A stretch of DNA of 64,000 nt, from assembly GCA_002368155.1 (NCBI GenBank), contig AP018180.1, forward strand, positions 6,218,908 to 6,282,907, given 5' to 3'. The DNA is from Nostoc carneum NIES-2107 (GTDB lineage: Bacteria > Cyanobacteriota > Cyanobacteriia > Cyanobacteriales > Nostocaceae). How positions within the stretch are numbered: position 1 is the first letter of the stretch; every line of letters begins with the position of its first letter. Under the pieces are notes generated by a model that saw only the letters and a list, made by a program, of their open reading frames with translations, searched no databases and was not told where the DNA came from. Of the stretch, positions 3,162 through 20,357 are shown piece after piece. The position numbers and the translations under genes were made by a program.

Positions 3162-4529
3162 TTATATAGAATTCCGATGATGGCGAGAAAACTTTTTCAA
3201 TTTCAAACCAACTAACCCTAATAAGCCAATACCGATTAATCCAGCATTATTGGCTGGTTCCGGAACAGAAGCAACATTCTCTTGTTGATCGATAGTATCC
3301 CAAAAACCACCCATTTCAAAAATACCTTGTTCGGTGAGAATGCCAACCAGGTCTTGTGTTTGATTTAAAGTACTAGTAGTGCTAGTACCACCCCAACGAT
3401 TTTGCTGTAACATATTCGTAACATCAACGTTACGATTAACTTCTTTAGCCCATAAAGCAGCATATTGGGCTTGAGAATCTAATGTGAAATCACTATAAGT
3501 TCTAACTTTTCTGTTCCAACCAATCACATCTAAAACGTTAAGATCTCGTTCATCGGCTTCACGCACAGCGCCAACACGCAAAGCTGGTGCCATGACACCA
3601 ATACTATTAGTGTAATTTTTCCAATGACTTCCCTGAAAGCCATCGCCCTTAATACTGGTATCCTGACCAGTAGATAAATAACCTATGTTGCTAATACCAC
3701 CATCAATAGAGAAGTAACTAGCATTACTGTTACTCAAGTCTGATGAACCTTGAGTTTTACTAGAGTCAGAATAACGGAATAAATCAAAGGGAGTAAATAG
3801 TTTTTTACGTAAATCTAAATCATTGTAGTTCTTAGCATTAATGCCATCGAGACTACTAACAAATCCTAAGATATGTCCGATTTCGTGAACAGCAACACTG
3901 TAGAGGTCAAATGGTTTAGTGAACCAGTTATTGACGCTAGTGCTGGTGTAACCGCTGTTTTCCCATCCATAACCAGTATTATCTAGCTCATTTAAAATGA
4001 TCAGTCCATCTAAGGCAGTACTATTTTTGTCAATTAAATTTAATGCTTTGGCGTTGGCTTGAGTTAAAGTGATTGTGTTATTAGAAAGCGTGAGTGTTTG
4101 TTGCTGTAGATCTTGAAAAATAGACTGCCATTGTGTACTTGAAGATAAATTGCTGACAGCAGTGTAATCAAATTGAGATTGGCGGTCATTATTCAATGCA
4201 TTCCAAAAAGAGTTATAGCTCACATTATTTACAAACGCTGGAATAGCTCCACCAAGCATCCCTTTTGGCAATTTACTCGAAGAAGCAAAATCAACGTGAA
4301 TATTAACAGTAGCATCATCACTGAGGTAATCAGCCCAGTATCTTCCTGCAAATTCAAAAGCAGTTTTTTGGTCGTAACTTACACCTGGATCGTATGTGAA
4401 GTTAAATGTCACTGCTTGGGCTGGTAAGGTGTGAGTGATGATAGTAGTTGATGCTAGCGCTAGCGTTATTAATTGAGTAAAATTATTAGCTTTAGGACAT
4501 TTATGACTGTTCTGCTTCTGGGATGACAT
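3162..4529 (-). CDS. PEP-CTERM anchored metalloprotease (NF038122-like)
   Basis: A 455-residue protein with an N-terminal signal segment ending near LPAQA (residue 39). It carries a zinc-protease motif HEIGHILGF at residues 215-223, preceded by VAV. The C-terminus holds the sorting signal VPEP, a hydrophobic stretch (GLIGIGLLGLVGLKL) and a basic tail, the PEP-CTERM tripartite pattern recognised by exosortase. The motif is metzincin-like (HExxHxxG), but the usual third histidine is not in the canonical place: Ser225 and Asp228 follow. This matches what I recall of the cyanobacterial NF038122 family. It lies between the exoprotein and the CHAT gene on the same strand, so it could act on surface proteins, but no substrate is shown. 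The ATG start gives a complete signal peptide. Confidence 0.8.
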   Translation of the reverse strand: MSSQKQNSHKCPKANNFTQLITLALASTTIITHTLPAQAVTFNFTYDPGVSYDQKTAFEFAGRYWADYLSDDATVNIHVDFASSSKLPKGMLGGAIPAFVNNVSYNSFWNALNNDRQSQFDYTAVSNLSSSTQWQSIFQDLQQQTLTLSNNTITLTQANAKALNLIDKNSTALDGLIILNELDNTGYGWENSGYTSTSVNNWFTKPFDLYSVAVHEIGHILGFVSSLDGINAKNYNDLDLRKKLFTPFDLFRYSDSSKTQGSSDLSNSNASYFSIDGGISNIGYLSTGQDTSIKGDGFQGSHWKNYTNSIGVMAPALRVGAVREADERDLNVLDVIGWNRKVRTYSDFTLDSQAQYAALWAKEVNRNVDVTNMLQQNRWGGTSTTSTLNQTQDLVGILTEQGIFEMGGFWDTIDQQENVASVPEPANNAGLIGIGLLGLVGLKLKKFSRHHRNSI

Positions 4530-7825: not shown

Positions 7826-9139
7826 TTATACAGGGATTTCAATGACAAATTTTGTGCCTTCTCCTAATACTGAAAAACATTGGATTTTGCCTTGGTGTTT
7901 TTCTTCCACAATCTGTTTACTAATAGATAAACCTAAACCAGTACCTTTACCAACTGATTTAGTAGTAAAAAATTGTTCAAATATTTGGTTTATAAGTTCT
8001 GGTGCTATTCCAGAACCATTATCTGCAAAGGTGACACTTAGCAAATTTTCATCCTCATCAAATCGAGTTTCAATCACAATTTCATAGCCAGCATTTTCTG
8101 GATTGGGTGATTTTTCATTTTTCTCATCAAAAGCGTCAATAGAGTTAGAAATAATATTCATAAATACTTGGCTGATTTGCCCAGGATAGCATTTAACTGA
8201 GGGTATATCTCCATAATTCTTCATGACTACTATTTGCGATCGCTTATTACTTGCCTTCAAACGATGCTGCAGAATTAGCAAAGTACTATCAATACCTTCG
8301 TGAATATCGAAGTCTACTTTATGAGATATATCTGTACGGGAAAAGGTACGTAAACTAGTGCTAATGTCACTGATGCGTTCTACACCGATATTCATATATG
8401 AAAGCATGGCTGGCAAATCTTTGATGATTTGTTCCACATCTATCGTTTTGGCATCTTTAACAATATCCGCAGGTGGATCTGAATAGTATTGACGATAAAG
8501 TTGCAAGTGGTTGACTAAGTCATCTAGATAATTACCAATAAAATGCAAATTACCTGTTAAGGAAGTGAGCGGATTGTTAATTTCATGAGCTACACCAGCG
8601 ACTAATTGACCGAGAGTAGATAATTTTTCGTTCTGCACTAATTGGAGTTGAGATTGCTTTAATTCATCCAGTGCTTGCGAAAGCTTGGTGGTACGTTCTT
8701 CTATCCGCTGCTCTAACTGTTGATTCTGTAATTCTAGTTGTTTTGTTAAAAATCGGATTTTTAAATGGACGTGAACTCTGGCTAAAACCTCTTCTTTTTG
8801 AAAAGGTTTAGTAATATAATCTACCCCCCCGATTAAAAGCCCTTGCACCTTATCAAATTTATCTGATAGAGCGCTTAAAAAGATTATTGGTATATCATGA
8901 GTTGCAGGATTTTTTTTGAGGATTTGGCAGGTGTTAAATCCATCAAGACCTGGCATCATCACATCTAATAAAATCAAATCTGGTTGGGCATATTCAGCTT
9001 GTTCAATAGCACTTTGACCATCAGTAGCAATCAAAATTTCCCAGCCATAGTTAGAGATAGCATTACATAAAACTTTGAGATTGGTTTGATTATCATCAAC
9101 AATCATGATAGTTGCTTCTTCAACATTAATATGTTTCAT
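7826..9139 (-). CDS. Response regulator receiver fused to a histidine kinase
   Basis: 437 residues. An N-terminal receiver domain (residues 10-125) has acidic residues Asp15-Asp16, the phospho-acceptor Asp59 in LLLDVMMPG, and Lys112 in TKPF. A coiled-coil linker (about 127-172) is followed by a histidine kinase core with the H-box HEINNPLTS (His185), N-box [10 protein letters not shown], and G-boxes DNGSGIAP and GKGTGLGLS. There is no membrane segment, so it is cytoplasmic. Its ATG overlaps the TGA of the upstream CHASE2 kinase by 4 bp, so the two are translationally coupled and probably form one phosphorelay: the upstream receiver or kinase could feed this receiver. The kinase core is clearly related to the C-terminal core of the giant kinase at 38181-43877. 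Confidence 0.9.
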
Positions 9140-13358: not shown

Positions 13359-14057
13359 TCATACTGCTACGGTTACAACCCGATCCTGTGCTAGCTTGCC
13401 ATCTTCCATGTGAACGATGCGATCGGCTATGTCTAAAATCCGGTTGTCATGAGTCACCATCAAGATTGTACAGCCTTGTTCCTTGGCTAATTGTTGCATC
13501 AGGTTAACCACATCTCGCCCAGATTTACTATCAAGCGCCGCCGTTGGTTCATCTGCTAACACAATTTTAGGACGACTGACTAAAGCACGTGCGATCGCTA
13601 CTCGTTGTTTTTGTCCCCCTGATAAATCATCAGGATAGTAATTGAGGCGCTGTCCTAATCCTACTTGCTCTAGCATTTCCGCCGAGCGCTGTTTCATTTC
13701 CTGGGGTGAAATATCTTGATGCAGTTCTAACCCCATTCTCACATTCTGAAGGGCGGTCAAACTTCCATGCAAGTTATGTGCTTGGAAAATATAACCGTGG
13801 CTGCGTCTAGCTTCGGTAAGTTGCGCTGCATTTGCACCGCAGAGTTCCCTTCCTAATATTTGCAAACTACCAGATTGAGCAGAACGCAAGCCTCCTACTA
13901 AGGTTAGTAGGGTAGTTTTACCAGAACCCGAAGGCCCTGTCATGATAATAATTTCGCCAGCGTTGATTTCTAAATTAATATCAAACAGAACTTGCTTTTT
14001 CAGTTGACCTTGACCAAAGTAATGGTCAAGATTTTGGATAGAGATTACTGGATTCAT
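13359..14057 (-). CDS. devA: DevA-type ABC exporter ATP-binding subunit
   Basis: 232 residues, a compact ATPase of the MacB/LolD type. It has Walker A GPSGSGKTT (about residues 40-48), signature LSGGQKQRVAIARA, Walker B IVLADEPTAALDSK and the switch His in MVTHD. The order devB-devC-devA on the minus strand is that of the heterocyst glycolipid exporter family of Nostocales. In Anabaena, DevBCA with TolC exports glycolipids to the heterocyst envelope. Cyanobacteria carry several paralogues, so the exact substrate here is not proven; the TetR association rather suggests a regulated paralogue. It is separated from devC by 136 bp that hold heptamer repeats. Confidence 0.88.
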   Translation of the reverse strand: MNPVISIQNLDHYFGQGQLKKQVLFDINLEINAGEIIIMTGPSGSGKTTLLTLVGGLRSAQSGSLQILGRELCGANAAQLTEARRSHGYIFQAHNLHGSLTALQNVRMGLELHQDISPQEMKQRSAEMLEQVGLGQRLNYYPDDLSGGQKQRVAIARALVSRPKIVLADEPTAALDSKSGRDVVNLMQQLAKEQGCTILMVTHDNRILDIADRIVHMEDGKLAQDRVVTVAV

Positions 14058-14062
14058 AGCAG

Positions 14063-14127
14063 GGATTGGGGATTAGGGACTGGGGATTGGGGATTGGGGA
14101 TTGGGGATTGGGGACTGGGGATTAGGG
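14063..14127. repeat. Heptanucleotide short tandem repeat (GGGGATT / GGGGACT)
   Basis: About nine head-to-tail heptamers of the form GGGGATT or GGGGACT between devC and devA. The same repeat type recurs at 16936-16977 (reverse complement), 25440-25474, 27097-27128, 49220-49298 (reverse complement, looser) and 54307-54346. It is the STRR class known from heterocystous cyanobacteria. Confidence 0.8.
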
Positions 14128-14193
14128 AGATGAGGGAGAAACAATAAATGTCTCATTACCCATTACCAATTACCTATTACCAAATGACAAATT

Positions 14194-15369
14194 TTAAAAC
14201 ATATCTGCAGGGTCAGCAGATTGAACTTTGCGTGTGGCGATCACACCGGAAATCATGCACATAATGATGGTGAGTACTTGTACCTGGATGGCTCTGGCTA
14301 AGGTCATATATAAAGGTAAATTTGTAGCGTTCCGTGTGAGTGCATATAGTCCTATAGACACGCCGAAACCAGGTAGAAAGCCTAATATTGCCATAATTAT
14401 CGCTTCTTCAAAGACGATACCTAATAAGTAGAGGTTGTTGTAACCCATCGCTTTGAAGGTGGCGTATTCTTTCATGTGGGCGTTGACATCTGTGGATAGA
14501 ACTTGATAAACGATAATCACGCCAACCATGAATCCCATCGATACACCGAGGCTGAAGATAAAGCCGATCGCAGTGTTGGTTTTCCAGTATTCTTTTTCAA
14601 ATTCGATAAATTCAGCTTTGGTTAAAACTTTGACATCTTCACCTAAATGAGATTTTAAGGCGGTAGCAGTTTGCTTGGGGTCGTGGCCTGGTTGCACTTG
14701 AATTAAACCAAGGCTGAGGCTGCTAGCATCCCGTCTAGGAAATACTCGTAAAAAGTTCTGGTCGCTGGTAATTAATGTACCATCAGCAATAAAGGATGCG
14801 CCGACGGAAAATAAGCCGTTAATGCTAATTGTGCGGCGGTCGATTTCTGTAGTGACAGGTTTTCCTGCATTAATTTGGGCGATCGCTTTTTGGTAATCTC
14901 CTCTAGAGGCGCGATCGAAAAGCATTGTATCTGGTAGCTTAACAATATCTTTTTGGCGGTTGACTTCTGGTAAGTCCAACACTTGCTTGTCAGGGTTAAA
15001 TCCCATGACTAGCACCGCCGTCTTTTTCTTGGTTTGGGGATTCTTCCAATCACCAAAATTAATATACATACCTTCAGCTGACTTGATTCCAGGAAAGTCC
15101 ATTGCTTGATAAAGTCGCCGTCTGGTAAAGCTGGACATATTCGCCAAGTTCCGCGCTTGGGGACTGACAAGCACAATGTCAGCTTGCATACTGCGGTGCA
15201 ATCTGGTGTTACTCTCATACAATGCAGTCTGAAACCCCAGTTGCATAAACATGAGAACATCTGCAAAGGCAATACCTGAGAGTGCAACTAATAAACGGCT
15301 TCTTTGATGACTTAATTGCAACCATCCTAAAGGTGTACGTCGCTGAAGTTGAGAGATGAATCCAATCAT
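14194..15369 (-). CDS. devC: DevC-type ABC exporter permease
   Basis: 391 residues of the FtsX/MacB permease fold. There is an N-terminal membrane helix (about 24-45, LLVALSGIAFADVLMFMQLG), a large extracytoplasmic domain (about 50-260) and three C-terminal helices (about 268-375: FIFSLGVSMGFMVGVIIVY, IVFEEAIIMAILGFLPGFG, and a last helix before the end DPADMF). The length and layout match DevC of Anabaena. The start ATG overlaps the devB TGA by 4 bp, so translation is coupled to DevB. It forms the membrane channel with DevA and passes substrate to the DevB adaptor. Confidence 0.9.
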   Translation of the reverse strand: MIGFISQLQRRTPLGWLQLSHQRSRLLVALSGIAFADVLMFMQLGFQTALYESNTRLHRSMQADIVLVSPQARNLANMSSFTRRRLYQAMDFPGIKSAEGMYINFGDWKNPQTKKKTAVLVMGFNPDKQVLDLPEVNRQKDIVKLPDTMLFDRASRGDYQKAIAQINAGKPVTTEIDRRTISINGLFSVGASFIADGTLITSDQNFLRVFPRRDASSLSLGLIQVQPGHDPKQTATALKSHLGEDVKVLTKAEFIEFEKEYWKTNTAIGFIFSLGVSMGFMVGVIIVYQVLSTDVNAHMKEYATFKAMGYNNLYLLGIVFEEAIIMAILGFLPGFGVSIGLYALTRNATNLPLYMTLARAIQVQVLTIIMCMISGVIATRKVQSADPADMF

Positions 15370-16673
15370 TGCTCAATCACCGCCTTCACTTGTAAATTGG
15401 TAAACTGAGCAGCTTTGGCGCTGGATGCTTGATCTAACCGCACATGAACTTCTACTATTCTTGCGTCAATATTACTGGAAGGGTCGGCATTAATCACATT
15501 TTGTCGTTGTATCTGCATTCCAATCCAATCAACGGTTCCCTGTAATTCGCCAGGAAGAGAATCGCTGCTGACTTTGACTTTTTGACCAGGCCGGACTTTA
15601 TGAATATCACTTTGATATACTTCTGCAACTGCATACATCTGATCGGTTTGGCCTAGTTCCACAATCCCATCATTGCCAACAGTTTCACCAGCACGGGTAT
15701 GAATTTTGAGAATTTGTCCAGCTTTGGGAGCGCGAATATATGCTTGATTGAGTTGCGCTCTAATTTTCTCGACAGCAGCTTGAGCGCTATTTACCTCGGC
15801 TTGCGCGTTAGCTACATCTGTGGGACGAACTTCCGCAGTTTGGTTGAGGGTGGCTTTGGCTTCACTAATTTGCTGTTCTAAGGTGGCGATAGTTTTGTCG
15901 CGGTTAGCTTTGGCTTCGTTGATTTGTTGTTCTAAAGTGGCGACGGTTCTGGCTTTAGTAGCTTGGCTTTCGATAAATTGCTGGGTAGAAGTTTCAGCGC
16001 TTAATCTGCGGCGATCGACTTCTTGACTAGAAATTGCACCTTCTTTATATAAACTCTCGTAGCGTTGCACATCAGCTTGCGCGTTGCTTTTCTCAGCCGC
16101 TACACGTGCTACGGTAGCTTGTAAACTTTGCTGTTGTCCTTGCAGTTCTGCTTCTAAACGGTTAATTGTGGCTTGTTGCGTTCTAATACTTCCGGCTAGT
16201 TCAACTTGCAGACGGTTGATAGTAGCTTGACGCGCTGCAATTTCTCCCTGCTTTGCACCAGCTTTTACCTGCGCCAGACGGGATTTAGCGACTTCTACTT
16301 GTCTTTGCGCTTCATCCAAACTCGCCTGTAAGCGATCGCGACTATCCATAATTGCAATCACTTGTCCAACTTTGACGCGATCGCCTTCTTTCACCAACAA
16401 CTGCTCGACGCGATTTCCTTCATTAGCCGTCGGTGCAGATAGTTTAATCACCTCACCATTCGGTTCCAGTCGTCCCAATGCAGTTACAGTTTTTACAGAT
16501 GGTTGTATAGCTGCTGTTACTTCCGGCTTTGTCCTAGAATCAGCCTGAAACTTATTTACCGTATAAATACTAGCTCCTGCTGTAACTAAAGCTGTAATTA
16601 TTGCTATGGTTGCAGGTGACTTAAACACATTTTGGGAAGCTCGAAAACCCGCTAAATTCCAGTTTTGCGCCAT
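15366..16673 (-). CDS. devB: DevB-type HlyD-family membrane fusion protein
   Basis: 435 residues. One N-terminal membrane helix (about 20-40, TIAIITALVTAGASIYTV) is followed by a biotinyl-lipoyl-like half motif (VKEGDRVKVGQVIAIMDSRD, about 95-115). A long alpha-helical hairpin follows, with repeated RLQVEL, RLEAEL and LEQQI heptads (about 117-290), then the second lipoyl half (YIRAPKAGQILKIHTRAGE) and a beta-barrel. This is the periplasmic adaptor that links the DevCA pump to an outer-membrane TolC. It is the first gene of the operon. The promoter area just upstream holds two TetR-operator-like palindromes. Confidence 0.9.
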   Translation of the reverse strand: MAQNWNLAGFRASQNVFKSPATIAIITALVTAGASIYTVNKFQADSRTKPEVTAAIQPSVKTVTALGRLEPNGEVIKLSAPTANEGNRVEQLLVKEGDRVKVGQVIAIMDSRDRLQASLDEAQRQVEVAKSRLAQVKAGAKQGEIAARQATINRLQVELAGSIRTQQATINRLEAELQGQQQSLQATVARVAAEKSNAQADVQRYESLYKEGAISSQEVDRRRLSAETSTQQFIESQATKARTVATLEQQINEAKANRDKTIATLEQQISEAKATLNQTAEVRPTDVANAQAEVNSAQAAVEKIRAQLNQAYIRAPKAGQILKIHTRAGETVGNDGIVELGQTDQMYAVAEVYQSDIHKVRPGQKVKVSSDSLPGELQGTVDWIGMQIQRQNVINADPSSNIDARIVEVHVRLDQASSAKAAQFTNLQVKAVIEQ

Positions 16674-16702
16674 AGTATTCCCCTCTTACTGGCGGCAATT
16701 AA

Positions 16703-16722
16703 ACTAAACCGTCCAGTTCAAA
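16703..16722. promoter_or_regulatory. TetR operator-like palindrome, imperfect copy
   Basis: ACTAAAC, 6 bp, then GTTCAAA. The left half is identical to the perfect copy at 16733-16752 and the right half is degenerate (4 of 7). It sits 30 bp upstream of the devB start, so it would overlap the promoter or leader. Confidence 0.5.
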
Positions 16723-16732
16723 ATTATGCTAA

Positions 16733-16752
16733 ACTAAACCGAGTAGTTTAGT
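16733..16752. promoter_or_regulatory. TetR operator-like palindrome, perfect copy
   Basis: ACTAAAC-CGAGTA-GTTTAGT is a perfect 7+7 inverted repeat, 60 bp upstream of the devB start. Its 30-bp centre-to-centre spacing from the second copy means both lie on about the same helix face. The TetR-family gene at 19740 is the obvious candidate ligand; this is inference from position and symmetry. Confidence 0.65.
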
Positions 16753-16758
16753 CAAGTA

Positions 16759-16828
16759 GTCATTAGTCATTGGTCATTAGTCATTGGTCATTGGTCATTA
16801 GTCATTAGTCATTGGTCATTAGTCATTG
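16759..16828. repeat. Ten tandem heptamers GTCATTA / GTCATTG
   Basis: Ten uninterrupted 7-bp units run from 16759 to 16828, each GTCATT followed by A or G. They lie upstream of the devB operators. Looser relatives occur at 13287-13330 and 25530-25572. Confidence 0.9.
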
Positions 16829-16989
16829 GTGTTTGTTATTTTCTCTTCATCCCCCACCCTGCGGGTACTCCGAAGGAGAACTCGCAGAGTAGCCGCAAAG
16901 CATCTACATCTTCCTCCTCTCCCATTCCCCATTACCCAATACCCAATCCCCAGTCCCCAGTCCCCAATCCCCAGTAAAATAATCTATAA
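16829..16989. repeat. Intergenic repeats before the transposon
   Basis: A hairpin-forming repeat (TGCGGGTACTCC..GGAGAACTCGCA, about 16861-16888) is followed by CCCCAGT/CCCCAAT heptamers (16936-16977). The last six bases, CTATAA at 16984-16989, are the left copy of the transposon target duplication. There is no gene. Confidence 0.6.
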
Positions 16990-17077
16990 CTGTACGTTCG
17001 CTCATTTTTAAAGGGTGAGAGGAATTAATGCCTTACTGTTAAAGGAAACAATACGATTTTGGATATCCTAAAAGCAT

Positions 17078-17221
17078 CACCGTGTAATACATGGAAAAAG
17101 GAAAAAAGCCCTTTCCATGTATTACATGGAAGCTATGGCTCATTAACATCTCATCTGTAATACTGAATATTACACTTTAAACTTCACTAATTTGGGGTTA
17201 AACTTACGATGTAATACACGG
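17078..17221. repeat. Left cluster of TGTAATACA motifs in the transposon
   Basis: Copies of TGTAATACA or its inverse lie at 17083-17091, 17118-17126 (inside the palindrome CCATGTATTACATGG), 17156-17164 (last base differs) and 17210-17218. A weaker half copy lies near 17167-17175. The last one abuts the likely start of the RHH-like gene, so it may be an autoregulatory site. One more copy is inside that gene at 17405-17413. Confidence 0.75.
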
Positions 17222-17617
17222 ATGAGGCGAATGTTAAAGCGGGATATTCAAGGGAAGTTCGCCCTCAAAGACGATGATTATCGTCAAGCGCGCTCTTTAA
17301 GATTAACGGATGAAACCTGGAAGGCTTTGGGGATCGCTGCCGAATGCTTGGGTATGACTAGAGCTGATTACGTTGAACAGGTGATTAGAAGGAATGCTCA
17401 TCCAAGTATTACACGGGAAAAAAAGTTGGCACATAAAGCCAAAACTAGTGTTGTTGAAGTTGCGACCATGCCTCTAAAGGTGGCAACACTCGAAAGTTTA
17501 CGTAACCAAGTAATATTGGAGTTGAAGTTAGGTAAGCAATCACCGGGCTACAAAGCAGCACTCAAAGCCCTCAATCATTTTATTGTGGTACTAAATAGCG
17601 AGTATACACAACAGTAG
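17222..17617 (+). CDS. Transposon-encoded ribbon-helix-helix-like DNA-binding protein
   Basis: 131 residues from the ATG at 17222 (another ATG follows at 17231; a TTG at 17192 in the same frame is less likely because it would put the TGTAATACA motif inside the gene). Residues about 23-56 read as a short strand, RSLRLTDETW, followed by two helices ending AECLGMTRADYVEQVIR. This is a ribbon-helix-helix-like pattern seen in CopG/Arc-type repressors. A basic N-terminus (MRRMLKRD) and a C-terminal helical part follow. It sits 36 bp before the transposase, on the same strand. I infer that it binds the repeated TGTAATACA sites and controls or helps transposition. I do not recognise the full-length protein. 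Confidence 0.7.
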   Translation: MRRMLKRDIQGKFALKDDDYRQARSLRLTDETWKALGIAAECLGMTRADYVEQVIRRNAHPSITREKKLAHKAKTSVVEVATMPLKVATLESLRNQVILELKLGKQSPGYKAALKALNHFIVVLNSEYTQQ

Positions 17618-17653
17618 GAATTCGCTGTTTTGTATCAGTAAGCGGGGAAAACA

Positions 17654-19360
17654 GTGGACATAAGTTCTGAGCGGATTGACGATATTCCCGTCATCGTGGA
17701 ATGGCTTGTTCAGATGGGGATAGCTAAATGTATTGACCAAAAACTCAAAAAACCACACGGAAACCACAAAGGCATGAGTTATGGTCAATTGAGTGTATTG
17801 TTACTGACATACATAATTACTCAATCAGACCATCGGTTGTGTGCAGTGGAATCATGGGTAAAGGCACATCGAAGGATTTTAGAGTTAAGTACAGGGTGGT
17901 CGATAGGAGAAAAAGATACCAGTGATGACAGATTGGCAAGGGTAGTCGAAGAGTTAGGTAAGCAAACACAAGCAACGCAGGAAATAGAGGTCAAGTTAGG
18001 ACAAAATCTGATTCGCGCCTACGAATTGCCCACACAAGTGGCACGAACCGATACGACTAGTTTTAGCGTGAATCATCAACAGGGAGATTCTCCAGAAGAA
18101 AATATATTACGTTATGGCTATTCCAAGGACAAACGCCCAGATTTGTTGCAATACCGTCAATTATTGGCAACCCTTGACCCAATGGGAATGCCATTAGTCA
18201 GCACAACCCTTGAAGGTAATGGAGCTGACGACCCATTATATTTCCCCACTTGGCAAAAAATAGCACAAGTGATTGGACATAAAAAGTTTGTCTTCATCGC
18301 TGATTGTAAAGCTGGGTCGATTGCAACTCGCGCTCAAATCGCCGCTTCTAGGGGTATTTACTGCGTTCCTGTAGCCATGAGTGGGCAACACCCTCAATAT
18401 CTTCAGCAATGGGTTCTCAACCCACCAGCGGAAATTGTGCCCATTCGTTTACCACGACAAGATGAAGAAGAACCTGCGGTGGGAAAAGGTTTTGAAGTGG
18501 AGTTAGGTAAGTTTTGGTTCAACAAACAAACCAACAAATGGGTGCGTTGGCTAGAACGCTACTTAGTAGTTTACTCCCAAAGCCTTGCCGCATCAATGAT
18601 ACGTGGACAACAGCAACGCATCTTGACTGCTGAAACCGCTCTCCAAAGTTTAGCTAACAAGCCAGGCTCAGATCGGGAGCTACTCACCCATAAAGTAGAA
18701 AACATTCTCCAGCGCTATCGTGTCAAAAATTTTTTCTCAACCATGATTACAGAACAGATCACTAAAAAAACTCGTCATCTCGGACGGGGACGACCATCAA
18801 AAAACTCGACCACAGAGGAATTGACAGATATTTGTCTTCAACTTCATATCCAGAAGATAGATACTGCAATTCAGGAGGCAGAAACTTTGGCAGGGTGGCG
18901 ATTGTATGTTACTAATGCCGATAGTAGCCAGATGAGTTTACCACTTGCTGTGATGTATTATCGGGATGAATGGCTTTTAGAGCGAGGTTTTCACCGTTTT
19001 AAAAGGGGTTCTTTGCCAGCCCTACCCATTTACTTTCAAAATACTGACCGAATCACTGGCTTAATGTTCCTGTTGAACATAGCTTTGCGTGTATTTACTC
19101 TAATGGAGTTTGTAGTACGGCTGGCTCTTGAGCAAACCCAACAATCTTTGGCAGGTCTTTATGACGGTAATCCAAAGCGAAAAACTGCTCGCCCATCTGC
19201 TGAACAAATGCTCAAGGCTTTTTGTAATTTAACTCTTTATTTTTTACCTGATTCTACCATCTTCATCACACCAATTAACGCGCTTCAAAAACAAATTCTT
19301 TCTTTAATGAAAATGCCTGAATCCCTTTATCAGATAGATTCAGTGGTGCGCTCGACATAA
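17654..19360 (+). CDS. IS1634-family-like DDE transposase
   Basis: 568 residues from a GTG start that has GCGGGG six bases upstream. The N-terminal part (about 1-100, ERIDDIPVIVEWLVQMGI) matches the DUF4277 region of IS1634/IS4-group transposases. The acidic catalytic residues are visible: Asp133 in RTDTTSFS, Asp217 in FIADCKAGS and Glu443 in WLLERGFHRFK, with Lys450 giving the E-x6-K part of the IS4-group signature. There is no frameshift or internal stop, so the enzyme may be active. A 240-bp non-coding tail follows before the right inverted repeat. Confidence 0.88.
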   Translation: MDISSERIDDIPVIVEWLVQMGIAKCIDQKLKKPHGNHKGMSYGQLSVLLLTYIITQSDHRLCAVESWVKAHRRILELSTGWSIGEKDTSDDRLARVVEELGKQTQATQEIEVKLGQNLIRAYELPTQVARTDTTSFSVNHQQGDSPEENILRYGYSKDKRPDLLQYRQLLATLDPMGMPLVSTTLEGNGADDPLYFPTWQKIAQVIGHKKFVFIADCKAGSIATRAQIAASRGIYCVPVAMSGQHPQYLQQWVLNPPAEIVPIRLPRQDEEEPAVGKGFEVELGKFWFNKQTNKWVRWLERYLVVYSQSLAASMIRGQQQRILTAETALQSLANKPGSDRELLTHKVENILQRYRVKNFFSTMITEQITKKTRHLGRGRPSKNSTTEELTDICLQLHIQKIDTAIQEAETLAGWRLYVTNADSSQMSLPLAVMYYRDEWLLERGFHRFKRGSLPALPIYFQNTDRITGLMFLLNIALRVFTLMEFVVRLALEQTQQSLAGLYDGNPKRKTARPSAEQMLKAFCNLTLYFLPDSTIFITPINALQKQILSLMKMPESLYQIDSVVRST

Positions 19361-19441
19361 TTCATCTTACTCAATTACCTGTACCACTCCTGAAGGAGGA
19401 TACACACAATTGAAGTCCCATTTCAATATTAGCAATTTCCG

Positions 19442-19626
19442 TGTAAGACACCGTAAATTGAACTTTGAATATTGCTACTCTTCCATGTATTACACTGAAG
19501 AGCTTAACTTCCGGTAACAGTCTCTCAATATATTTCTTTCATCCCTGTAATACACGCAAAGTCGCAATTTCTTTTACCATGTAATACATGGTAAAGCTCG
19601 TTCTCCTTTTCCCAAGTATTACACGG
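19442..19626. repeat. Right cluster of TGTAATACA motifs in the transposon
   Basis: Copies lie at 19486-19494, 19546-19554, 19580-19588 (inside the palindrome ACCATGTAATACATGGT) and 19615-19623, plus a one-mismatch copy at 19442-19450. The arrangement mirrors the left end only partly, because only the outermost site lies in the shared inverted repeat. Confidence 0.75.
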
Positions 19627-19739
19627 TGATGGTTTTAGGAGATCCAAAATCGTATTGTTTCCTTTAACAGTAAGGCGTTAATTCCTCTCACACTTCAAAA
19701 ATAAGCGAACGTACAGCTATAAGCAAAGTTGATTCACAA

Positions 19740-20357
19740 ATGGCACGCACAAAAGTTGACGAAGTAGAACGCGAGAGTTCAGTTGAGAAAGTAGAACAAA
19801 TTCTGCAAGGCGCGATGCAGGAGTTCCTTAAGCATGGCTATGCTGGTACAAGTATGGATAAGGTGGCTGTCGCTGCGGGGGTGTCTAAAGCCACAGTCTA
19901 CAGCCACTTTCAGGATAAAGAAGAACTATTTAAAGTATTACTTGAGCATTTATCACGGCAAAAGTTTAACTCTATATTTGGTACAGAACCTCTCCAAGGT
20001 GAACCAACAGTTGTATTACGCCAGTTAGGAACCAAAGCCTTAGAGCACATGGTAGCAGACCAAGAACATCGGGCATTGATGCGGGTATTAATCGGCGAAT
20101 CTGGACGTTTTCCAGAGTTAGCGCAGATTTGTGTGCGCGCCATGATTAAACCCGTTGTCGAAACCCTGACTCAATACGTTGCTAGTCATCCTGAACTGAA
20201 AATTAATGATCCAGAAGCAGTGGCCAGGATTTTATTAGGGTCATTAGTGCATTTTCATATTGTTCAGGATGTATTGCATGGTAAAGAGATTTTACCAATG
20301 GAGAGCGATCGCGTGATTAATACGATGATCGATTTGATTGTCAATAATGCTAAGTAA
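19740..20357 (+). CDS. TetR/AcrR-family transcriptional regulator
   Basis: 205 residues. The N-terminal TetR helix-turn-helix (residues about 18-62) reads ILQGAMQEFLKHGYAGTSMD then VAAGVSKATVYSHFQDKEEL, the canonical recognition pattern. The C-terminal half is helical ligand- and dimer-binding domain (AefR-like). The gene is divergent from devBCA, and two operator-like palindromes lie before devB, so I infer it represses the exporter and perhaps itself. The transposon now sits 17 bp upstream of its ATG, between the gene and its original promoter region, so expression may be lost or driven from the element. The coding frame itself is intact. Confidence 0.9.
   Translation: MARTKVDEVERESSVEKVEQILQGAMQEFLKHGYAGTSMDKVAVAAGVSKATVYSHFQDKEELFKVLLEHLSRQKFNSIFGTEPLQGEPTVVLRQLGTKALEHMVADQEHRALMRVLIGESGRFPELAQICVRAMIKPVVETLTQYVASHPELKINDPEAVARILLGSLVHFHIVQDVLHGKEILPMESDRVINTMIDLIVNNAK

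Follow-up and report, generated by a model that had tools for sequence, protein, structure and literature searches.

A ribbon-helix-helix-like gene with palindromic sites in an IS1634-family element of Nostoc carneum NIES-2107 and in other cyanobacterial mobile elements

The IS1634-family element and its small gene

The stretch of DNA analysed here, hereafter the window, comprises 64,000 nucleotides of Nostoc carneum NIES-2107 (contig AP018180.1, positions 6,218,908 to 6,282,907). It harbours an IS1634-family element of 2727 bp, which possesses a small gene for a predicted ribbon-helix-helix-like (RHH-like) protein upstream of the transposase gene, and a series of short palindromic sites. With few exceptions, sites are present where the small gene is present and missing where it is missing, and the cassette that the two form lies inside several unrelated mobile elements. 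An earlier note, made from the letters of the window alone, had placed at 16990-19716 an element with a small gene before an IS1634-type transposase, and this was confirmed. The borders are exact, as judged from the shared ends of the element copies and from target duplications, and the transposase belongs to the IS1634 family according to NF033559 (E=4e-86, 290 bits versus a cut-off of 100). The small gene and the transposase gene are the only long open reading frames (ORFs) of the element.

Fifteen copies of the element were found in the genome of N. carneum NIES-2107. In thirteen of them both ends are intact and no more than one base deviates from the window copy; in the other two the left end is disrupted. 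Exact target duplications were identified at eight of the 15 copies (5 bp at two, 6 bp at five and 7 bp at one), the duplication at the window copy being CTATAA. No target duplication was found at five end-intact copies, all located on contig 4. In one copy (G000 C1:4758749-4760399, G000 being this genome) an insert of ~1.5 kb interrupts the left end, and the two parts overlap by 6 bp of element sequence. At each of two places on contig 4 (L019 and L020), two copies lie in the same orientation ~480 bp apart with identical sequence at their inner borders, an arrangement resembling a composite transposon.

The inverted repeat of the window copy extends over 145 bp with 89% complementarity, and its outermost 5 bp fall outside the element. 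IS1634 members are described in PMC2266710 as 1500-2000 bp long, with AT-rich target duplications of 5-6 bp and the terminal consensus C-----YT. The duplication at the window element is within that size, and the element tip, CTGTACGT, agrees with the consensus in the C at position 1 and the T at position 8, position 7 being G. The element exceeds the length range given there because it carries the small gene and the arrays of sites.

The ORF of the small gene ends at 17617 and can start at the ATG at 17222, giving 131 aa, or at the ATG at 17231, giving 128 aa. The earlier note had described a 131-residue RHH-like gene; the ORF is present as described, but the relatives of the protein begin at MLKRD, which corresponds to the ATG at 17231, and the RHH fold is supported only indirectly. 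Relatives, of which 16 and later 46 were aligned, are 118-175 aa long among those read. They share the N-terminal consensus KRDIQGKF..DYR.VRSLRLTD.TW..LGIA.E..G.TRADYLE; a variable linker connects it to a C-terminal part that is again conserved, ELKLGKQA.GYK.AQKALNRFI. The residues S21, R23 and T25, which alternate along a predicted strand, are invariant in the 46 sequences. The structure model of the protein (one model of low confidence, pLDDT 64.3, pTM 0.31) contains helices at 26-38 and 43-54, which fit an RHH domain followed by a helical tail; the protein is here termed RHH-like. In this monomer model the region of S21, R23 and T25 is not formed as a strand.

Curated RHH models were matched by distant relatives. 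The relative encoded on a plasmid described below matched RHH_4 below the cut-off (E=1.4e-4, 22.2 bits versus 25), a relative fused to a kinase matched RHH_1 above it (23.7 bits versus 20.5), and for a relative in genome G279 no RHH model was matched. The kinase-fused relative (L031:4442-9733, G000 contig 1) is a PAS-sensor-kinase-like protein of 1763 aa that starts with a related RHH domain, 35% identical. At another locus (L113:5959-8142) the small-gene frame continues into an open frame of 727 aa, and a transposase match remains only at 8136-8384. No relatives of the small protein were found in the viral contigs or phage records searched.

The repeat is best written as the 15-bp palindrome CCRTGTAWTACAYGG, and the nonamer reported in the earlier note is its core. 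Inside the element TGTAATACA occurs at six places exactly and at ten with at most one mismatch, in line with the about ten motifs reported before; the two longer palindromes at 17115-17129 and 19576-19592 are likewise present, and one site directly adjoins the ATG at 17222. Over the 64-kb window the nonamer is mildly in excess (32 versus 22.65 expected, with 5 of 100 shuffles as high). Over the 9.36-Mb genome the 15-bp form was found at 109 places with at most one mismatch, versus two for the pattern read backwards, and among the matches listed these places lie, by inspection, in copies of the window element. We rejected the possibility that the motif is a general genomic repeat on the basis of these 15-bp counts and of its co-occurrence with the small gene across genomes. 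The features are compiled in Table 1.

Table 1. Positions of the IS1634-family element, its genes and its palindromic sites in the window
Feature	Position	Strand	Basis
Whole IS1634-family element, target duplication CTATAA	16990..19716	+	shared copy ends, target duplications
Left inverted repeat, two subterminal sites 90 and 125 bp from tip	16990..17129	+	
Site CCGTGTAATACATGG, 90 bp from left tip	17080..17094	+	
Site CCATGTATTACATGG, palindromic about its centre base, 125 bp from left tip	17115..17129	+	
Degenerate site about nonamer TGTAATACT (17156-17164)	17153..17167	+	
Site CGATGTAATACACGG, immediately 5' of small-gene start, operator-like	17207..17221	+	
RHH-like protein gene, 128 aa (131 aa from ATG 17222)	17231..17617	+	start judged from relatives
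Intragenic site CCAAGTATTACACGG, in frame, encodes PSITR	17402..17416	+	
IS1634 family transposase, 568 aa	17654..19360	+	NF033559 E=4e-86
Right-end site CCGTGTAAGACACCG, weak, 263 bp from tip	19439..19453	+	
Right-end site CCATGTATTACACTG, 219 bp from tip	19483..19497	+	
Right-end site CCCTGTAATACACGC, 159 bp from tip	19543..19557	+	
Right inverted repeat, two subterminal sites 90 and 125 bp from tip	19577..19716	-	
Right-end site CCATGTAATACATGG, 125 bp from tip	19577..19591	+	
Right-end site CCAAGTATTACACGG, 90 bp from tip	19612..19626	+	

Association of the sites with the small gene

Co-occurrence was examined in 388 genomes of the order, with strong small-gene matches taken at E<=1e-15 and weak ones at E<=1e-4. 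Exact CCRWGTAWTACWYGG was present in 30 of the 31 genomes with a strong match versus 42 of the 357 others, and the reversed pattern in 2 of 31 versus 12 of 357. With weaker matches included, the exact site was found in 46 of 67 genomes versus 26 of 321. The earlier note had proposed testing if the motif co-varies with the protein, and across genomes it does.

At the level of loci, the best 80 of 98 relatives from a scan of the collection were analysed, all with cyanobacterial titles except one called Gracilibacteria MAG. All 80 possess a site in or beside the gene at no more than one mismatch, a stringency at which not a single site resulted from symmetric shuffles of the motif; with two mismatches allowed, the motif gave 286 sites in the same loci versus a shuffle mean of 15 and a largest value of 178. 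In 74 of the 80 loci a site starts 15-46 bp ahead of the match start at up to two mismatches, and in 64 at up to one, three of the 80 having too little upstream sequence for this check.

Sites inside the small gene were found in 67 of 80 loci (up to two mismatches). They lie in the reading frame of the gene and specify P-x-[IN]-T-x, in most cases as PSITR or PCITR. When intragenic sites were picked by peptide alone, giving 81 places in 46 of 55 genes, the codon usage was extreme: ACA for Thr in 80 of 81 (26% elsewhere in the same genes), AGT for Ser in 49 of 50 (13% elsewhere) and CGG for Arg in 62 of 64 (11% elsewhere), these counts coming from related genes and hence not being independent. 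Five of the nine genes lacking the peptide are of the convergent IS1182 type described below. The skew indicates that the DNA itself is selected at these places, and this codon choice led us to reject the possibility that the peptide alone accounts for the intragenic sites.

Relatives of the transposases without the small gene were compared next to those with it. Among 29 loci compared, 16 are IS1634 loci that hold a nearly full transposase, in L204 with one stop, and no small gene was found there; the other 13 are L199, where the gene comes from a neighbouring IS1182 element, L190, a cut right part, L202, a damaged derivative, and ten siteless fragments. Fifteen of the 16 lack any site at up to two mismatches, and L195 has one exact site. 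Only 182 and 96 bp precede the transposase in L194 and L197, so a small gene is possible in these two. The closest gene-less relative (L189/L251), from the same genus and with a transposase 78% identical, spans ~1.9 kb between tip-like sequences, and no site was found in it even at three mismatches. L202 (1259-3003) kept both subterminal arrays with no small gene and a damaged transposase; its genome has the gene elsewhere, and L202 is a candidate for movement in trans.

The IS1182 comparison comprised 30 loci from 55 places listed. All seven with the gene possess three to five sites, and 21 of the 23 without it are siteless, six of these 23 being cut by contig ends (L219, L226, L231, L238, L242 and L246); L227 and L243 have one two-mismatch site each. 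Gene-less relatives with the same repeats, which the earlier note had named as an outcome that would speak against it, are thus almost wholly absent in both families, with L195, L202, L227 and L243 as exceptions. We rejected the possibility that the repeats are ordinary IS1634 end repeats because gene-less relatives other than L195 and L202 are without them.

Site pairs 34 and 29 bp apart were also seen at two loci, L254 and L255, with no detectable small gene.

Distribution across mobile elements and arrangement at their ends

The earlier note had treated the feature as particular to IS1634, which did not hold: the same protein and motif are also present in IS1182 elements, in a Tn7-like element and on a rolling-circle plasmid. 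The nearest transposase within 700 bp over the 80 loci was IS1182 in 35, IS1634 in 16 and Tn7-like TnsC in eight; none was recognised in 21, nine of which lie near a contig end. Two loci counted as IS1634 by proximity, L138 and L168, group with the IS1182-type genes in the small-protein tree.

In the IS1182 loci, small gene and transposase are on the same strand in 26, convergent in five and divergent in four, and NF033551 was matched for two examples. Inverted repeats (GATACTGTTGGCGAA and variants) enclose the transposase, the small gene and the sites where both tips were found; tips were not found for L141, L152 and L175.

The Tn7-like element, a compact one bounded by TGTGACTTGAAT...TTCAAGTCACA, measures 5372 bp in L144 (L144:5837-11208). 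A TniB-like TnsC is encoded in it together with a TnsA-TnsB fusion; the small gene adjoins one end. Such TnsAB fusions are known from CRISPR-associated transposons (CASTs) of types I-B2 and I-D, according to PMC10293859. An open small gene is seen in L128, L135 and L136 as well as in the copy carried by the N. carneum NIES-2107 genome (L030:3736-8105, G000 contig 4). Other ORFs of at least 90 aa between the ends of the L144 element are two antisense frames of 103 and 110 aa, which were not scanned, and no TniQ was apparent there; the L030 element appears to cut a NERD-helicase gene.

The 4.5-kb plasmid NZ_LO018306.1 of Planktothrix agardhii is a rolling-circle plasmid that encodes a Rep_1 protein and a small protein 37-38% identical. 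Its sites lie at 115 and 162 before the gene, at 322 inside it, at 548 at the stop, and at 3333 and 3437 elsewhere. Genome G279 possesses seven identical copies of a relative 31% identical. At L248:1490-4973 this relative is part of a unit of ~3-3.5 kb with KilA-N- and Rep-like ORFs, named by inspection, and six one-mismatch sites; three of the seven copies were compared, one of which shares ~3 kb in permuted order and one only 1.1 kb.

A tree of the small proteins (83 rows, 65 different sequences with some same-genome duplicates) covered loci that have a recognisable start motif and a frame of 90-230 aa. The small proteins cluster by host transposon, and the association is inherited within clades; the changes needed were two for IS1634, one for Tn7-like, seven for same-strand IS1182 and four for opposite-strand IS1182. 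In a tree of 35 IS1182 transposases, the presence of the cassette requires six changes, four of them forced by starred branches, and the sites follow the gene. Both trees are quick ones, and cut flanks may hide some genes.

The arrays at the IS1634 ends were studied in 13 elements. L119, a second copy in the L118 genome, was set aside; L110, L111, L113, L114 and L121 were not used since their genomes were already represented; the right end could not be located in L112 and L116, and the left end is missing in L190. A site lies 89-92 bp from the tip in all 11 left and all ten right ends, a second at 122-127 bp in ten of 11 left and ten of ten right ends, and a third at 158-163 bp in all ten right ends. 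The motif columns are more alike than their surroundings at the right end (0.77 versus 0.59, as high in 10 of 338 shifts) and at the left end (0.87 versus 0.59, as high in 3 of 226 shifts). The inverted repeats of the window element measure 145 bp, versus 20-89 bp in the 12 of 15 gene-less loci that showed one; the tip core, GTTCGC, is similar.

Arrangements in IS1182 are more diverse. The convergent elements L164 and L178 have site pairs near both tips, where both gene starts lie, and L173 and L188 have a pair at one tip and a single site at the other. In the divergent elements L129-L131 the tip on the side of the transposase 3' end has sites at distances of 81, 173 and 213 bp. In ten same-strand elements the 215 bp next to the right tip are free of sites, and many IS1182 transposase genes are preceded by sites.

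Around the insertion in the window (13359-20357), the element lies between minus-strand DevBCA-type exporter-like genes and a plus-strand TetR-like regulator gene, named by inspection, and being located between them it may separate these genes from a shared control region. Tandem copies of GTCATTAGTCATTG were found nearby at 16801-16828.

Interpretation and comparison with known systems

We estimate a probability of about 60% that the cassette is a CopG-like self-regulating repressor with its operators, a single transferable unit repeatedly captured by transposons for transposase control and, in IS1634, also built into the ends. Such a cassette would consist of the RHH-like protein with its extra conserved C-terminal part, the operator-like site at its own start codon and, usually, intragenic sites. 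The protein is predicted to bind the 15-bp palindromes, cooperatively along sites that are often ~35 bp apart, and to repress its own gene together with the transposase gene, which lies downstream in IS1634 and behind sites of its own in many IS1182 elements. Every copy would thus dampen the whole set of element copies in its cell, in the way that plasmid copy number is kept in check by repressors of the CopG type. In IS1634, where sites are additionally built into symmetric subterminal arrays, bound protein would probably also shape or block the ends.

The earlier note had suggested a built-in regulator or accessory transposition protein on an iteron-like array. This is still the best reading, but the most constant sites are those at the start of the gene and inside it, which points first to autoregulation. 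Since the end arrays differ by host, they appear as host-specific additions. If the cassette moved between IS1634, IS1182, a Tn7-like transposon and a rolling-circle plasmid with the same 15-bp site, regulation of transposition would be exchangeable between unrelated elements. Closely related elements that have or lack the cassette differ in the gene as well as in the sites, and so offer a clean natural experiment.

Several results weigh against a self-regulating repressor of this kind. The RHH assignment is indirect because curated models reach the proteins through distant members only. For the window protein, Pfam gave TacA1 alone, below the cut-off (E=0.055), and no family matched more than four of the 46 relatives even at E<=1. 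A Foldseek search with the model gave no match at E<=0.001, with RHH antitoxins and Arc appearing at E>1 only, and a sequence search of solved structures yielded no RHH chain, only two unrelated matches (E 0.49 and 0.8). The promoter scan found no promoter above chance (6 versus 6.0 expected). The site is also present in 26 of the 321 genomes without even a weak small-gene match, and three genomes have two exact sites with no small gene detected. Repression alone explains neither the right-end IS1634 array, which has no adjoining gene start, nor the sites at the transposase 3' end in L129-L131, and no site precedes the transposase in the IS1182 elements L156, L157, L159 and L161. In the Tn7-like loci sites were found at the small gene only, one further L180 site lying outside the element, and the small gene is interrupted or truncated in five of the eight named loci, L144 included. 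Finally, the element reached 15 copies despite a built-in repressor; control, if present, can therefore fail or acts late.

A wider proposal, which we hold only tentatively, is that the portable cassette serves as a common regulatory currency among unrelated cyanobacterial transposons and plasmids, with copy control across families and with the IS1634 protein now part of the end complex. Because the motif is identical, the protein of one transposon family could bind and control ends and promoters that belong to other families present in its cell. In N. carneum NIES-2107, such control would connect the Tn7-like element with the 15 copies of the IS1634 element.

Less probable than the self-regulating repressor is a primary role as an accessory transposition protein, which would coat the subterminal arrays, bend or pair the ends and help the transposase to assemble, comparable to TNPA of plant En/Spm, autoregulation being secondary. 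The symmetric IS1634 arrays at ~90, 125 and 160 bp from the tips, with their conserved motif columns, agree with such a role, and their occurrence at the right end, which has no gene start, implies that they are more than promoter control. The inverted repeats, longer than in gene-less relatives, point the same way, as do the tip sites of the IS1182 elements L164, L178, L173 and L188 and those beyond the transposase in L129-L131. However, the ten same-strand IS1182 elements lack sites near the right tip, four of them having none before the transposase either, and the Tn7-like elements have sites only at the end with the small gene. Moreover, the gene-less IS1634 relatives, three copies of which occur in G120, keep open full-length transposases, so the family does not need the small protein.

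It is improbable, in our judgement, that the cassette is a hitchhiking plasmid maintenance gene, CopG- or StbA-like, for copy control or single-protein segregation, whose sites serve the cassette and not the transposon. Its neighbourhood to the Rep_1 gene on the Planktothrix plasmid and its presence in the multi-copy chromosomal element of G279 with Rep-like ORFs would suit such an origin, and three intact genes without a recognised nearby transposase (L122, L123 and L126) keep start and/or intragenic sites only. Yet the association with transposons is inherited within clades, the positions of the IS1634 arrays are fixed relative to the tips, and sites precede many IS1182 transposase genes. 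Mere descent, gene and sites being adjacent pieces of one old element that are not functionally connected, would account for related small proteins that cluster by host but is very improbable, given the codon constraint on the DNA of the intragenic sites, a motif kept where the protein is only 31-38% identical, and repeated changes of gene presence in the IS1182 transposase tree, four of them forced, with the sites following.

Among described systems, passenger genes between the left end and the transposase are known in IS231, as stated in PMC2266710. The window element is similar in having an extra gene between the left inverted repeat and the transposase, and differs in that this gene comes with cognate sites in both ends. 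Repressors carried by cyanobacterial transposons are described in PMC9938897 for Tn7-like type V-K CASTs. There, Arc_1 and Arc_2 are RHH repressor candidates of 53-72 aa encoded upstream of cas12k, and CvkR, of the MerR type, is a palindrome-binding repressor of cas12k and tnsB, with no sign of autoregulation (PMC9938897). The Arc proteins are tied to cas12k, whereas the proteins studied here, of ~120-175 aa, span IS1634, IS1182, Tn7-like elements and a plasmid; with 128-131 aa, the window protein lies outside the size of Arc_1 and Arc_2 (PMC9938897).

A protein-plus-site cassette common to several transposon families was not described in the titles and abstract openings among the matches listed, ISfinder and subscription literature being outside this scope. 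To our knowledge, transposon-encoded repressors and plasmid copy-control proteins are known singly. The plant transposon En/Spm encodes TNPA, a second protein that goes with subterminal repeats. Both systems have a second protein along with short repeats arrayed at the two ends, whereas the one described here is bacterial, RHH-like and common to unrelated transposases.

The self-regulating repressor that we favour would be nearest, in its working, to CopG-type copy control. CopG-type RHH repressors of the pMV158 family control plasmid copy number. Similar to CopG, the cassette combines a small RHH-like protein with palindromes at its own start, and in the Planktothrix relative it shares a small plasmid with a Rep_1 protein. 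It differs in its longer protein (118-175 aa) with a conserved C-terminal part, in its intragenic sites, in a window protein that matches no Pfam RHH model, and in being carried by transposons.

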